37,245 nt of DNA from Candidatus Firestoneibacteriota bacterium (GTDB taxonomy: Bacteria; Oederibacteriota; D2-FULL-39-29; CAIOVX01). Under the pieces are notes generated by a model. That model saw only the letters and a program-made list of their open reading frames with translations, had not been told where the DNA came from and searched no databases. Location of the stretch: contig CAIOVX010000009.1 of assembly GCA_903861835.1 (NCBI GenBank), positions 1 through 37,245 of the forward strand. The letters run 5' to 3'. Of the stretch, positions 15,564 to 36,371 are shown one piece after another (position 1 is the stretch's first letter; each line of letters opens with the position of its first letter). Both the position numbers and the translations under genes were made by a program.

Positions 15564-15599
15564 TAATCCGCGTAATCTGTCTTGCTAATCCGCGTAATT
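15564..15599 (+). repeat. Two GATTACGCAGATTA-family units (direct)
   Basis: TAATCCGCGTAATC at 15564-15577 and TAATCCGCGTAATT at 15586-15599, eight bases apart and in the same orientation. They match the units that border the GxxExxY gene at about 22 kb. The gap between csp and the GH1 gene (15551-15727) otherwise holds only the T/G-rich tract below. Confidence 0.75.
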
Positions 15600-19848: not shown

Positions 19849-19935
19849 ATTTGCCTCCGAAGTTCAGTTCTATCTCAATCTTTCAAACCATACATCCTTC
19901 CGTCCTCTGTCTGCCGGCTCCGCTGCCGCTCCGCG

Positions 19936-19960
19936 GATTACTGACTACTAATTGCTAATG
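19936..19960 (-). repeat. Heptamer array, opposite strand (AATYAGY family)
   Basis: Read on the minus strand: CATTAGC, AATTAGT, AGTCAGT, AATCC, the same 7-nt family as before the tRNA. It lies in the gap between paaK copy 1 and its ACT gene. Confidence 0.6.
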
Positions 19961-20020
19961 TAGAACTAATTGATTAAGCGTCTATGCTGGCCTTTAAGCA
20001 TCTGAGCCTCTAAACATCCA

Positions 20021-20052
20021 ACCTTCCAATCTTCCAACCTTCCAACCTTCCA
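20021..20052. repeat. Octamer array (ACCTTCCA), four units
   Basis: ACCTTCCA, ATCTTCCA, ACCTTCCA, ACCTTCCA without gaps, preceded by a half-unit ACATCCA. It starts eight bases after the stop codon of the minus-strand paaK and would be in the transcript between paaK and the ACT gene. Confidence 0.85.
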
Positions 20053-20059
20053 AGCATCT

Positions 20060-21367
20060 CTACTTGAGTTCTCTTTGATCGAACACCCGCTTTGCCTTGC
20101 CCTCGCTGCGGGGAAGAGTTTTTGGTTCAACCAGCGTTACCTTAAGTTTTAGCCCGACGGATTTCTCTATGTGGTTTTCAATGTTCCTCTTCGTTTCTTC
20201 CATATGCCTTATCTCGTCGGAAAAGAGGCTCTCCGAGGCTTCAACCTGTACTTCTATTTCGTCAAGCTGGTGCGGTCTTGTAATAATTATCTTGTAATGG
20301 GGCTCAAGCCCGTTTATCTCAAGGAGGGCTTTTTCTATTGAAGACGGGAAGACGATTACACCGCGAATCTTTAGCATATCATCCGAGCGGCCGGTTATTC
20401 GGTCCATCTTGATGGTGGTTCTGCCGCATTTGCACTCGCCGCCGCACAGAGAGGTAATGTCTTTAGTGCGGAAACGAATCATCGGCGTGCCTTCACGGGT
20501 AAGCGTGGTCAAGACCAGTTCGCCTTTTTTGCCTTCGGAAAGCACAGAAAGACTCTCGGGAGAGATTATTTCAGGATAGAAGACGTCTTCCTGCAAGTGC
20601 AGGCCTTGCTTGACTTCGCATTCCTGCGCCACCCCCGGGCCGATGATTTCTGTAAGGCCGTAGATGTTGGTGGCTGAAAGATGCAGGCGTTTCTCGATTT
20701 CTTCGCGCATCTTTTCGGTCCACATCTCAGCCCCGAAGACACCGGCCCTAAGTTTCAGGGATTTTAAGTCAATCTTATCTTCTTTTGCGGATTCCGCCAA
20801 AAAGAGCGTGTAGGAGGGAGTGCAGGTAAGAATGGTACTCCCGAAGTCACGTATGATTTCGAGCTGGCGTTTTGTATTGCCTGCTGATATGGGAATTACA
20901 TTAGCACCTATTTTTCTGGCTCCGTAGTGAACTCCCAGTCCCCCGGTAAAAAGCCCGTAACCGTAGGCGTTTTGTACGATGTCTGTCTTGGTGCAGCCTG
21001 CCATGGAAAGCGAACGCGCCATTACCTCACTCCAAAGTTCTATGTCCGCAATCGTGTAGCCCATGACTACCGGCTTGCCGGTAGTCCCGGACGAGGTGTG
21101 TATCTCAACAATATCTTCCATGGGAGCAGCGAACATGCCGTAAGGATAGGCGTCGCGCAATTCCGCCTTGGAAGTAAAAGGAAGTTTCTCAATGTCCTTG
21201 AGGCTGTTTATGTCGGAAGGTTTCACGCCGGATTTATCAAAAGCTTTTTTATAATAGGGGACCCTTTCGTAAGCGTATTTAACAATATGCTGCAATCGTT
21301 CCAGCTGCAGCTGTTCTTTTTCCAGGGGCAGAAGGCACTCTGCCTTTTTGTTCCAGATGAGAGACAT
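20060..21367 (-). CDS. paaK: Phenylacetate-CoA ligase, copy 1
   Basis: A 435-residue adenylate-forming ligase that joins an aryl acetate to CoA with ATP, or works in reverse to conserve energy from aryl-acetyl-CoA. It shows the P-loop TSSGTTGKP at 91-99, the AGxFGAEMW block, [12 protein letters not shown], a four-Cys cluster CGGECKCG and the hinge [13 protein letters not shown]. The ending [13 protein letters not shown] carries the catalytic Lys region. GGAGG lies five bases before the ATG. It is followed by an ACT gene; copy 2 and another ACT gene lie upstream in the same direction. The paaK-ACT arrangement with iorA and iorB in the same window argues for aryl-pyruvate metabolism. Confidence 0.95.
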
Positions 21368-21480
21368 GAATCCTCCGTAAAAGGGAAAAGACGTTTAACC
21401 ACAAATTCCATCACGAAATCGCATTAGTTTAAATCACAAATAAAAATAAAGAAAATAAATCAAAAAACTTTTTGAATTAC

Positions 21481-21534
21481 TTTGTACTTTTGTGTTTTGG
21501 TGTTTGTTTGGTGCTTGTGATTTGGTGCTTTACT
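21481..21534 (-). repeat. T/G-rich degenerate tract (minus strand: AAGCACCAAA words)
   Basis: Words TTTGGTGTT, TTTGGTGCTT and TTTGGTGCTT recur with spacings of 9-14 bases (minus strand AGCACCAAA). It directly follows the stop codon of the minus-strand ACT gene and resembles the tract before the GH1 gene. The rest of the gap to paaK copy 1 (21368-21480) shows nothing else. Confidence 0.6.
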
Positions 21535-21536
21535 CC

Positions 21537-21923
21537 TTATAGCGCTTTCTTTGCCTTTTCCGTGTCTTTAATGTCGCAAATAAGCAACGCGCCCTGGCGG
21601 TCTTTCTCAATTAGAACATAGGCGTTCTCAATGTTCAAGCCGCTTTTCGCGATAAACTGCGCGACATTGTGAAACCCGCCCGGTTTATCTTCCATCTCAA
21701 TTGCAAAGACCTCGTTCATCGATATGGTGAAGCCTGCTTTTTTGAAGGCTTCCAGGGCTTTCTCGGGTTTGTCTACAATAAACCTCATTATCCCGAAGTC
21801 TCCCTGGCTTGCGATATTAAACGCCAGGATATTAATCTTGTTTTCCTCAAAGACTTTGGTTATATGCTCCAGTTTCCCCGGCTTGTTTTCGGCAAAAATT
21901 GACAACTGCTTGATGTTTTTCAT
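21537..21923 (-). CDS. Tandem ACT-domain protein (paaK-associated), copy 2
   Basis: A 128-residue protein with two ACT domains: QLSIFAENKPGKLEHITKV with NKINILAFNIA, and VFAIEMEDKPGGFHNVAQF with GLNIENAYVL. I start at ATG 21923 because AGGAG lies six bases before it; a TTG two codons earlier overlaps the spacing region. It is clearly paralogous to the 143-residue ACT protein but shorter at the C-terminus. It should follow paaK copy 2, as copy 1 is followed by its own ACT gene, but a compact GxxExxY element lies between them. Confidence 0.9.
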   Translation of the reverse strand: MKNIKQLSIFAENKPGKLEHITKVFEENKINILAFNIASQGDFGIMRFIVDKPEKALEAFKKAGFTISMNEVFAIEMEDKPGGFHNVAQFIAKSGLNIENAYVLIEKDRQGALLICDIKDTEKAKKAL

Positions 21924-21946
21924 TTGCAACTCCTGAATCTGGGTTT

Positions 21947-22399
21947 GATTACGCAGATTCCTTATTAAGATTACGCAGATTAGTAATGTGACACTCTTTT
22001 TATTTCACAACTTCTATTGCCAAAGTTGATGATTAGACCTACTCTGAGACCTGAAGCTTTTAAGTATGAAACCATCTGCGATTCAACTATCTTTGGCAAA
22101 TAGCCGGCCACGGATTTCAACTCAACTATTATTTTCTCTTTTATAACCAGATCCAGCCTAAAATTGCCTACTTTGATCCCTTTGAAAACAACATTATAAG
22201 GTTTCTCTTGTTCATATGTGATACTTTCTTGTTTGAGAAGCATGGTCAGGCTATTTTGGTATACTCTCTCCGGGAACCCGGGCCCGATAGCAGAATGCAC
22301 CTTAAAACTAAGCCCTATTATTATTCTGGTTAATTCATTTTCTTCTATTTGATTATCCATCTTTAATCTGTGTAATCTGTTCCCCTAATCTGCGTAATC
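21947..22399. mobile_element. Candidate 453-bp element: GxxExxY gene enclosed by GATTACGCAGATTA inverted repeats
   Basis: Left border: GATTACGCAGATTC (21947-21960) and GATTACGCAGATTA (21969-21982). Right border, inverted: TAATCTGTGTAATC (22364-22377) and TAATCTGCGTAATC (22386-22399). The single gene inside starts three bases from one repeat, and its stop codon is the first three bases of the other. The right border ends two bases before the paaK stop codon. The element thus fills the gap between paaK copy 2 and its ACT gene. The repeat family also occurs at 15564, 25706 and 28514-28597. Mobility is inference. Confidence 0.6.
21980..22360 (-). CDS. GxxExxY protein, PD-(D/E)XK nuclease-like
   Basis: A 126-residue member of the GxxExxY family: the name-giving motif is GFPERVY in HSAIGPGFPERVYQNSL. 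The family is placed in the PD-(D/E)XK nuclease superfamily. Here LDLVIKEKIIVELKSV gives Asp, a nine-residue spacing and Glu-Leu-Lys in the expected strand-turn-strand layout, so the active site looks complete. No biological role has been firmly shown for the family. The gene has no recognisable ribosome site; its ATG lies three bases after a GATTACACAGATTA repeat and its TAA stop is part of another repeat. It is unrelated to the aromatic-acid genes on both sides, which supports insertion. Confidence 0.85.
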   Translation of the reverse strand: MDNQIEENELTRIIIGLSFKVHSAIGPGFPERVYQNSLTMLLKQESITYEQEKPYNVVFKGIKVGNFRLDLVIKEKIIVELKSVAGYLPKIVESQMVSYLKASGLRVGLIINFGNRSCEIKRVSHY

Positions 22400-22401
22400 A
22401 A

Positions 22402-23697
22402 TCAATAGACTTTTCTATTATCGATAACTCGCTTCGACTTGCCTTCGCTCACCGGCAAAGTCCCGGGTTCCGCGAGTTCAACCTTCGGTCTGACAAGTAT
22501 AGCGGCCTTGAGTCTGTCGAGCAGGGTCCCGCGAAGAGTATTTAAATTGTCGAGATTGCCGTCAAAGTAGCCCTTGGCAAACTCCACCTTAATGGTCATA
22601 TCTTCCGAGGATTCCAGGACTATCTGATAGTTCTTCCCGACTCCGTTGACGCTCATAAGCACCTGTTCTATCTGCTGAGGATAGATGTTGACGCCGCGAA
22701 TTATAAACATGTCATCCGCCCTGCCGTGAATGCGTTTAATCCGGACATGCGTTCTGCCGCAGGCGCACCTTACCGGGTCTATCGCTGTAATGTCTCTCGT
22801 CCTGTACCTGATAATCGGCATGCCTTCGCGGTTTATCGTGGTCAAAACCAGTTCGCCGTACTCTCCGTCAGGGAGCTGCTTTCCTGTTGCAGGATCGACA
22901 ATTTCGACAATAAAGTTATCCTCCCAGATGTGCATTCCATTCTTCTCCGTGCACTCAAAGGCGACTCCCGGCCCGTTCATCTCTGTAAGCCCGTAAGAAT
23001 TAAAGACTTCTATCCCCATAGAACTTTCAAGTTTCAGCCGGGTTTCTTCCGTGTAAGGTTCTGCTCCCATGAAAGCCCTTTTAAGTTTAAGGTCCTTCGC
23101 CGGGTTTATCCCTTTGGCCTCAAAGTGAGAGGCGAGATACAGCGCGTAGCTCGGGGTAAGGTGCAGAGTGGTGGTTCCGAAATCCTGCATCAGCATTATC
23201 TGCCTGTCGGTGTTGCCCACGGCGGAAGGGATAATAAGCATACCCAATTTCTCCGCGCCATAGTGCATTACCAGACCGCCGGTAAATAGCCCATAAGACA
23301 TCATGTTCTGCAAAACATCGTGTTTTGTGCAGCCGGTCGCGACCAAACACCTGGCTATCAGGTTCGCCGAGTTGTCGAGGTCGGCCTTGGTGAAGAAAAC
23401 TGCCTTTGGCTTGCCGGTGGTTCCCGAAGAGGTGTGCAGGCGGACGATATCTTCCCTGCCGCAGGCGAGCAGCCCGTCAGGGTAGTTTGCCTGGAGGTCT
23501 TCCCTCGTGGTAAACGGGAATTTCTCTATATCCTTGACTGATTTAAGCGAGACAGGTTTGACTTTGCATCTCGTGAACGCCTTTTGGTAGAAAGGCACAT
23601 TGTCGTACACCCGCTTAAGGGTTTGCTTAAGCCGTTTCAGCTGGAGAGCTTCCAGTTTTGCCCGCTTCAATGTTTCCTGTTCCATTTGCCAGAACAT
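22402..23697 (-). CDS. paaK: Phenylacetate-CoA ligase, copy 2
   Basis: A 431-residue paralogue of the ligase at 20-21 kb, with the same blocks: TSSGTTGKP at 89-97, SYGLTEMNGPG, CACGRTHV, HGRADDMFIIRGV and the end GTLPVSEGKSKRV. The zinc-like Cys cluster is reduced (CACG instead of CGGECKCG). The two enzymes probably differ in aryl-acid preference (for example phenylacetate against indole- or hydroxyphenyl-acetate); the sequence alone does not settle which. AGGAG lies five bases before ATG. It heads the paaK-ACT group; the symporter gene upstream ends 66 bases before it, with a strong hairpin between. Confidence 0.94.
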   Translation of the reverse strand: MFWQMEQETLKRAKLEALQLKRLKQTLKRVYDNVPFYQKAFTRCKVKPVSLKSVKDIEKFPFTTREDLQANYPDGLLACGREDIVRLHTSSGTTGKPKAVFFTKADLDNSANLIARCLVATGCTKHDVLQNMMSYGLFTGGLVMHYGAEKLGMLIIPSAVGNTDRQIMLMQDFGTTTLHLTPSYALYLASHFEAKGINPAKDLKLKRAFMGAEPYTEETRLKLESSMGIEVFNSYGLTEMNGPGVAFECTEKNGMHIWEDNFIVEIVDPATGKQLPDGEYGELVLTTINREGMPIIRYRTRDITAIDPVRCACGRTHVRIKRIHGRADDMFIIRGVNIYPQQIEQVLMSVNGVGKNYQIVLESSEDMTIKVEFAKGYFDGNLDNLNTLRGTLLDRLKAAILVRPKVELAEPGTLPVSEGKSKRVIDNRKVY

Positions 23698-25705: not shown

Positions 25706-25719
25706 GATTACGCTGATTA
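25706..25719. repeat. Single GATTACGCAGATTA-family unit
   Basis: GATTACGCTGATTA, one mismatch from the consensus, in the leader of the symporter copy 1 operon about 40 bases upstream of the small gene. Confidence 0.7.
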
Positions 25720-28513: not shown

Positions 28514-28597
28514 GATTACGCAGATTAGGTAGAGCGCTTACCCGGATTAGTTCATTTGCTTTAATCTGCGAAATCTCGTTTTGTAATCCGCGTAATC
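28514..28597. mobile_element. Gene-less inverted pair of GATTACGCAGATTA repeats (MITE-like)
   Basis: GATTACGCAGATTA at 28514-28527 and its inverted partner TAATCCGCGTAATC at 28584-28597 (one mismatch) enclose 56 bases, which hold further partial units (CCGGATTAG at 28542, TTAATCTGCGAAATC at 28561). It fills the 106-base gap between symporter 2 and the barrel gene. It has the borders of the GxxExxY element without its gene. Confidence 0.55.
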
Positions 28598-35357: not shown

Positions 35358-36371
35358 ATGATTATTGTTCTTAGAACCGATGCTACCGAAAAACAGATAA
35401 TCCGCATCCGCGCAAAGATTGCGGGCGCCGGGCTCACGCCGCATATTTCCAAGGGTGTAGAGCGGACCATTATGATGGTTGTCGGCGACGAGCGCGTGCT
35501 GGACCAGGCGGGAATGGAAACTATGCCGGGCGTTGACCGCGTGATGTCAGTCCTCCCGCCTTATAAACTCGCGAGCCGGGATTTCAAACCTGAAGACACA
35601 ATTATAAAAGTAAGGGGAGTTTCAATCGGCGGCAAGAAACTCTGCGTAATGGCAGGGCCCTGTTCGGTTGAGAGCGAGAAACAGCTTATAAGCGTCGCAA
35701 AAAAAGTCAAGAAGGGCGGGGCCAACATTCTTCGCGGGGGGGCGTTTAAGCCCCGGACCTCGCCTTACGCGTTCCAGGGGATGGGTGAAGACGGCTTGAA
35801 AATACTTGCCGCGGCGAGAGAGGCCACGGGGCTTCCCATCGTTACTGAAGTAATGGACACCAGAACTATCGCGCTTATCTCAAAGTATGCCGATATCCTT
35901 CAAGTCGGAGCGCGCAATATGCAAAACTTCGAACTTTTGAAAGAGATCGGGGAATATAAAATACCCGTGCTTTTGAAGCGGGGGCTCTCCAGCACAATAA
36001 AGGAATGGCTGATGTCGGCAGAATATATTATGTCACGCGGAAATCACCAGGTAATCATGTGTGAAAGAGGCATCCGCACTTTTGAGGATTCCACCAGGAA
36101 CACATTGGACCTTTCCGCTGTCTCTGTGGTAAAGCACTTAAGCCACCTGCCTGTAATCGTGGATCCGTCCCACGGCACGGGAAAATGGCGCTGGGCAATA
36201 CCAATGTCCAAGGCGGCTGTAGCAGGCGGGGCAGACGGGCTGATGCTGGAAGTGCACGAAAAACCCGAAGAAGCCTTATCTGACGGAGATCAGTCACTCT
36301 TGCCCGAAAAATTTGCTAAACTAATAAAGGAACTGAAACCGATAGCGAAGGCGGTGGGTAGGGCAATATAA
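35358..36371 (+). CDS. aroF: 3-deoxy-7-phosphoheptulonate synthase (DAHP synthase, type I-beta, with N-terminal regulatory domain)
   Basis: The 337-residue enzyme condenses phosphoenolpyruvate and erythrose 4-phosphate in the first shikimate step. Residues 1-68 form a ferredoxin-like regulatory domain, as in the Thermotoga maritima enzyme, which is feedback-inhibited by Tyr and Phe. The barrel carries the metal ligands at the same numbers as in that enzyme: Cys102 (AGPCSVES), His272 (DPSHGTG), Glu298 (LEVH) and Asp309 (LSDGDQ). RGGAFKPRTSPYAFQG binds phosphate. AGGAG lies nine bases before ATG. Long repeats lie on both sides, so co-transcription with hisC would have to cross a complex hairpin region. 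Confidence 0.96.
   Translation: MIIVLRTDATEKQIIRIRAKIAGAGLTPHISKGVERTIMMVVGDERVLDQAGMETMPGVDRVMSVLPPYKLASRDFKPEDTIIKVRGVSIGGKKLCVMAGPCSVESEKQLISVAKKVKKGGANILRGGAFKPRTSPYAFQGMGEDGLKILAAAREATGLPIVTEVMDTRTIALISKYADILQVGARNMQNFELLKEIGEYKIPVLLKRGLSSTIKEWLMSAEYIMSRGNHQVIMCERGIRTFEDSTRNTLDLSAVSVVKHLSHLPVIVDPSHGTGKWRWAIPMSKAAVAGGADGLMLEVHEKPEEALSDGDQSLLPEKFAKLIKELKPIAKAVGRAI

Follow-up and report, generated by a model that had tools for sequence, protein, structure and literature searches.

A GxxExxY nuclease-like gene framed by inverted repeat arrays as a candidate mobile cassette with a dispersed repeat family

The window, i.e. the whole stretch of 37,245 bp that was analyzed, stems from the genome of a Candidatus Firestonebacteria MAG (G000) and carries a small GxxExxY gene that is enclosed by inverted repeats and located between a paaK-like and an ACT-domain gene (Table 1). 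Inspection at base level confirmed the GATTACGCAGATTA units described in the initial annotation, with two units on either side of the gene in inverted orientation and a spacing of 22 bp inside each arm; the outer 15 bp of the element form a perfect inversion (21945-21959/22387-22401). The tight fit reported for gene and borders was also found as described: the start codon (22358-22360) is three bases off the right arm, the stop codon (21980-21982) lies inside the left arm, and the right arm ends two bases short of the paaK stop codon (22402-22404). Allowing up to three mismatches, the window contains 12 matches to the repeat versus 3.15 expected, and none of 100 shuffles reached this number. 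Repeats had been claimed at four other sites of the window, but only three of these were found (15564-15599, 25706-25719 and 28514-28597); the fourth showed a match at chance level only, and weaker matches at 35638 and elsewhere in the window were likewise at chance level. Neither a target duplication nor an outer TIR was detected at the element, and an Rfam scan of the window returned one tRNA and nothing else.

Table 1 Features of the window around the GxxExxY gene and its repeats
Feature	Position	Strand	Details
Whole gene-bearing element	21945..22401	-	perfectly inverted 15-bp ends TTGATTACGCAGATT / AATCTGCGTAATCAA
Left arm, outer repeat unit GATTACGCAGATTC	21947..21960	+	one mismatch
Left arm, inner repeat unit GATTACGCAGATTA	21969..21982	+	exact; last 3 bases are the stop codon of the GxxExxY gene
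Right arm, inner repeat unit GATTACACAGATTA	22364..22377	-	one mismatch
Right arm, outer repeat unit GATTACGCAGATTA	22386..22399	-	exact
GxxExxY gene, 126 aa, TIGR04256 / PF13366 PDDEXK_3	21980..22360	-	E31, D70, E80-x-K82, Q95-x3-Y99 intact
paaK-like gene, adjoins element upstream	22402..23697	-	phenylacetate-CoA ligase-like; named from sequence and initial annotation
ACT-domain gene	21537..21929	-	downstream of element, same operon
G000/G002 tract, ~98% identical	21925..22455	.	element plus flanking host DNA, ~20 bp on the left and ~55 bp on the right; ends approximate
Gene-less 84-bp palindromic element, same arms	28514..28597	.	units 28514+, 28536+, 28562-, 28584-
Half element (two units at 22-bp spacing)	15564..15599	-	one unit fewer in G002
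Single unit GATTACGCTGATTA	25706..25719	+	missing in G001

GxxExxY proteins appear in the annotation of several phyla and, to our knowledge, have no assigned function. The nuclease-like identity proposed for the protein of the window held, as it matched TIGR04256 with 124.1 bits (cut-off 35 bits) and PF13366 with 115.3 bits (cut-off 22 bits), and these were its sole HMM family matches. Across 43 sequences, the residues G26, G28, E31, Y34, D70, E80, K82, Q95, Y99, N112, F113 and R122 are invariant, and the conserved set corresponds to the D, ExK and QxxxY motifs of RecB/Cas4-type nucleases. The AlphaFold model of the protein reached a pLDDT of 96, and its top Foldseek match in the PDB was Cas4 SSO0001 (4ic1; E 1.5e-4, probability 1.00, TM only about 0.58), followed by phage-type exonucleases and the nuclease domains of AddAB/AdnAB. 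Based on motifs and modelled fold, the GxxExxY protein is a predicted Cas4/RecB-like PD-(D/E)XK nuclease. An assignment to Cas4 proper was rejected, because the 126 aa contain one cysteine, whereas four are needed for the iron-sulphur cluster. Thus, motifs and fold are shared with Cas4 and RecB-family nucleases, but the GxxExxY protein differs by its size of ~126 aa and its single cysteine without an iron-sulphur cluster, and there is no CRISPR context here.

The G000 genome contains one GxxExxY gene versus 173 copies of GATTACGCNGATTA (at most one mismatch, whole genome), and the reversed control pattern gave no matches. Among 41 of these sites that were read, the commonest full form, without a gene, measures ~82 bp and consists of two units, a loop of ~10 bp and two inverted units; in the gene-bearing element, the 36-bp arms are the same and the loop is replaced by the gene. 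In sequence with a coding share of 84%, 90% of the elements are intergenic, in most cases between co-directional genes. Most gene-less elements recur at the orthologous sites in every species of the genus, with differences of whole 22-bp units, as also seen for the palindromic element of the window, which is one such unit shorter in the congeners G001-G003. The gene-less elements examined in G000 are mostly old, and at 17 paired elements neither target duplications (0/17 at k ≥ 4) nor an outer TIR were found. G001 and G003 have ~100 repeats, with the GxxExxY gene undetected in these 87% complete MAGs.

Each arm is built from GATTA cores spaced 9, 13 and 9 bp apart, and these cores are near-invariant within the arms, while the spacers vary freely. 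Compensatory changes at one orthologous site hinted at selection for a hairpin, an idea that was dropped after comparison across elements, where arm complementarity amounted to 0.753 within versus 0.784 between elements. Predicted folding varies among the elements, and some of them fold strongly. As the arms are not kept complementary and the GATTA cores are conserved, selection seems to act on the sequence read in duplex DNA rather than on hairpin pairing.

The orthologous paaK|ACT gap spans 469 bp in G000 versus 68 bp in G001 and G003, where no trace of the element is left. In G002 (AM-2014-D7_bin-270), a close relative, the element occupies the same site; the ~98% identical tract shared with G000 is bounded by flanks of 72-92% identity, and the contigs of G002 break inside the element. 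The dS between both genomes was 0.025 for the GxxExxY gene, compared to 0.89 for paaK2 and 0.51 for the ACT gene (Fisher p 7e-19). The similarity of the tract and the low dS of the gene next to diverged neighbors indicate that the element was recently exchanged between the two species together with short flanks. A putative spread to an allelic site with co-converted flanks is represented by this one case, in MAG data. Comparison of sister genera revealed another GxxExxY cassette, with GATGACACAGATG repeats, between paaK1 and the ACT gene; this paralogous gap is filled in G004, G005 and G007 and empty in G006. The second cassette is old, its dS being saturated in G004/G005 like that of the flanks. 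Both gaps provide the filled/empty pairs that the initial annotation had suggested looking for (G001/G003; G006), and as both empty sites are without a repeat, insertion of the gene into a pre-existing gene-less repeat was rejected.

Short periodic repeats around GxxExxY genes are a familiar and unexplained sight. The 40 nearest genomes and a set of named MAGs served as sources of GxxExxY loci (a single-sequence scan of genome contigs yielded 9 loci only), and an inverted repeat across the gene was counted at a local score of at least 20. It was present at 36 of 44 GxxExxY genes versus 4/133 ORFs of G000 and 6/83 other ORFs in the same loci, in total 36/44 vs 10/216 controls (OR 93, p 3e-27). 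The border repeats are lineage-specific (CACAGAGG, CGCAGAGACGC, CGCAAAGTCG, CACGAAGTT, CACAGATGAATGGGATG, GATTACNNNGATTA), and many of them have an internal step near 9 bp, with modest aggregate peaks at 9 and 22. The expectation that relatives would carry border repeats was therefore borne out, but GATTACGC-type borders are not a general rule, since each lineage has its own repeat. Inverted borders also occur on named plasmid records of Bacteroides, Bernardetia and Treponema, and direct border repeats on those of Fusobacteria and Persicobacter. In 36/38 loci, the upstream gene is co-directional, which suggests expression of the GxxExxY gene by read-through. On a plasmid of Sphingomonas parapaucimobilis (NZ_CP155749.1), the GxxExxY gene is located between fabD and fabG with gaps of 34 bp and 2 bp, and a CGCGAAGGCGCGAGGACGCGAAG repeat was seen on the upstream side only. 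Relatives in viral contigs numbered zero by single-sequence scan and two by profile scan, and there were none in phage records; a viral origin was rejected on these counts.

Across genomes, the similarity of the borders rises with protein identity (rho 0.35 below 60% identity, 0/2000 permutations), and for the same pairs the correlation was 0.15 at a distance of 0.5 kb versus 0.38 at the borders. Paralogues within a genome have borders that are no more similar than those of cross-genome proteins of equal identity. Judged from these comparisons, each family has a repeat sequence of its own, which varies with the protein rather than with the genome, a co-variation that supports a putative recognition of the repeats by the GxxExxY protein. 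Dispersed copies of the CACAGATG motif were limited to 6/40 genomes; each of the six has GxxExxY genes, and in most of them an EKVY-type GxxExxY gene is bordered by this motif. Similarly, Desantisbacteria combine 223 GATTAC-type copies with a GATTAC-bordered GxxExxY gene. Exceptions are G012, with 127 GATTACGC copies and GATTAC borders at none of its inspected GxxExxY genes, and Syntrophaceae, where arrays occur at the gene only, with no genome-wide copies, and the gene is under purifying selection (w 0.05). Arrays kept without genome-wide copies fit autoregulation equally well.

In the genome G119, a burst of transposition became visible, with at least five copies of one GxxExxY element, 98-100% identical, at unrelated places. 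The ends of this element consist of the 12-bp TIR GTAACTRTTCAG, which occurs in 95 copies (control 0), and 8-bp target duplications were perfect in 10/28 and had at least seven matching positions in 13/28 cases, with 0.5 expected. Besides internally deleted derivatives, G119 contains a second cargo type under the same ends, with GGTTCACGG repeats. Both the length of the duplications, 8 bp, and the GTAA at the ends are reminiscent of IS66 (PMC11946415). In the G119 stretches read, no transposase gene for these ends was found; since a separate TIR and 8-bp duplications are common to another cargo, strand joining in G119 is probably performed by a third party, i.e. an unrelated transposase. The G119 GxxExxY elements are similar to IS66-type MITEs in that they have 8-bp duplications, ends with GTAA and copies with internal deletions. 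The window element and the related elements of G000 have neither such ends nor such duplications. A third interior, CATGACAGGCGAGACGCCTGTCC, was observed in G119 within a 121-bp element with GTAACTATTCAG ends and the 8-bp duplication AAATTATG (L279:288-408, L280:77-197).

Taken together, gene and arms come and go as a pair, arms lacking the gene are found across the genome, and the relatedness of the proteins is mirrored in that of their arms. The proposal of a minimal mobile element was upheld as far as gene and arms as one mobile unit are concerned, by the empty sites, the recent exchange, the filled/empty pairs and the burst in G119; "minimal" and autonomous stay candidate attributes. On balance, we favor the explanation that the element is a mobile cassette, in which a gene for a predicted nuclease stands between two inverted arrays of the sequence that this nuclease would recognize and which represents the gene-bearing member of the ~82-bp family. 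The GxxExxY protein would bind its own arms as duplex DNA and, once bound, may nick or trim the DNA there, which in turn could help the spread of the element and of its gene-less relatives. Strand joining might be left to host recombination, as the short co-converted flanks suggest at the window site, or alternatively to a transposase supplied in trans, with G119 as the example, and the gene would probably be expressed by read-through from the upstream gene. More tentatively, it is conceivable that each GxxExxY protein recognizes and propagates its own dispersed repeat lineage (GATTACGC, CACAGAGG, CGCAGAGACG, CACAGATGAATGGGATG and others) as a counterpart of RAYT/REPIN with an unrelated enzyme, and that TIGR02436 represents a second such system.

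A different and rather unlikely explanation treats the nuclease as cargo of non-autonomous elements that are moved in trans by an ordinary transposase, its product having another job such as autoregulation or protection or maintenance of the element. G119 argues for this with its GTAACTRTTCAG TIR in 95 copies, the 8-bp duplications, two main cargo types, deleted derivatives and the IS66-like 8-bp repeats and GTAA ends (PMC11946415), and an outer 20-bp TIR lies outside the repeats at locus L033; however, neither the window element nor the 17 paired G000 elements have an outer TIR or duplication, and passenger status alone does not explain a repeat sequence that follows the protein sequence. An improbable explanation is homing, i.e. 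cleavage by the nuclease of gene-less repeats or of alleles without the element, into which recombination would then copy the cassette. It agrees with the 98% identical tract, in which two species with a dS of 0.5-0.9 share the element and ~20-55 bp of adjoining host sequence at one site, but insertion into pre-existing repeats is not supported, as the empty sites examined in G001/G003 and G006 have no gene-less repeat.

We assign a very low probability to repeats that are REP-like, regulatory or transcript-stabilizing and have the gene as a neighbor by chance. The intergenic position of the elements, mostly between co-directional genes, and the strong folding of some would suit such a role, but the empty/filled sites and the arms that are not kept complementary argue against it, and the association (36/44 vs 10/216) and the protein/repeat co-variation already largely refute it. 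Similarly remote is the idea of operators for autoregulation that are kept with the gene and dispersed as a by-product of another repeat-amplifying process. It is consistent with several genomes of Syntrophaceae in which the arrays are kept at a conserved locus while genome-wide copies are absent, and with the purifying selection on the gene there (w 0.05), whereas arrays on both sides, inverted and also around the 3' end, and the full two-arm layout kept by gene-less copies are difficult to reconcile with it.

Among known systems, RAYT (TnpA_REP) and REPINs are similar in that a gene present once per genome is flanked by two inverted copies of an intergenic repeat that is also dispersed elsewhere; most of these repeats occur as inverted doublets, they evolve in concert with the gene, and where a genome has several paralogues, the repeats differ between them (PMC2817692, PMC3116915). 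In contrast, the RAYT enzyme is an HUH Y1 transposase instead of a predicted PD-(D/E)XK Cas4/RecB-like nuclease, the GxxExxY repeats are spaced-core arrays without a REP head, REPs preserve their hairpins whereas the GxxExxY arms show no selection for complementarity, and the GxxExxY system is spread over many phyla. The 23S rRNA intervening sequence (IVS) also places a small ORF, S23p, in a loop between inverted repeats and is regarded as selfish DNA (PMC4990558); the window element, however, is located between paaK and ACT genes and not in rRNA, its protein is not TIGR02436, and there was no evidence for RNA excision at this element. TIGR02436, the S23p/IVS-type four-helix bundle, was found in 27/40 genomes, and 11 of 19 examined loci, outside rRNA, have inverted periodic repeats at a score of at least 20, which points to a second gene family with the same architecture. 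In L178-L207, from relatives of G000, the TIGR02436 border repeats have other sequences, e.g. GAACATAGAACATAG at L187 and AAGTTTATAAAGTTTGTAAGG at L183.

In the open-access literature, to which the search was confined, we found no description of these repeats and no paper that connects GxxExxY with repeats. The association observed here provides a testable function for the protein and a candidate agent for the repeats, and it is an instance of enzyme and repeat evolving together outside the HUH transposases. The suggestion of IVS/S23 as a mobile element gains a wider frame from the TIGR02436 genes with the same layout described here. Overall, our results suggest that GxxExxY elements are mobile DNA of a kind that has attracted little notice, with the enzyme and its repeat forming a pair.

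Each gap of the paaK/ACT operon is occupied by a dispersed repeat family of its own. Positions 21425-21530 of the window, in the paaK1|ACT gap, comprise an AT-rich palindromic repeat (AAATCACAAATAAA ... TTTGGTGCTTGTGATTT) for which congeners have many dispersed matches, and a AACCTTCC-type repeat with an 8-bp period, also dispersed in congeners, is found at 19899-20060. In the same genus, an element of ~120 bp (L092:10405-10529) has many copies in G001-G003 that are 96-100% identical, an identity suggesting recent activity, and a second dispersed family of ~94 bp was observed nearby at L092:10640-10733.
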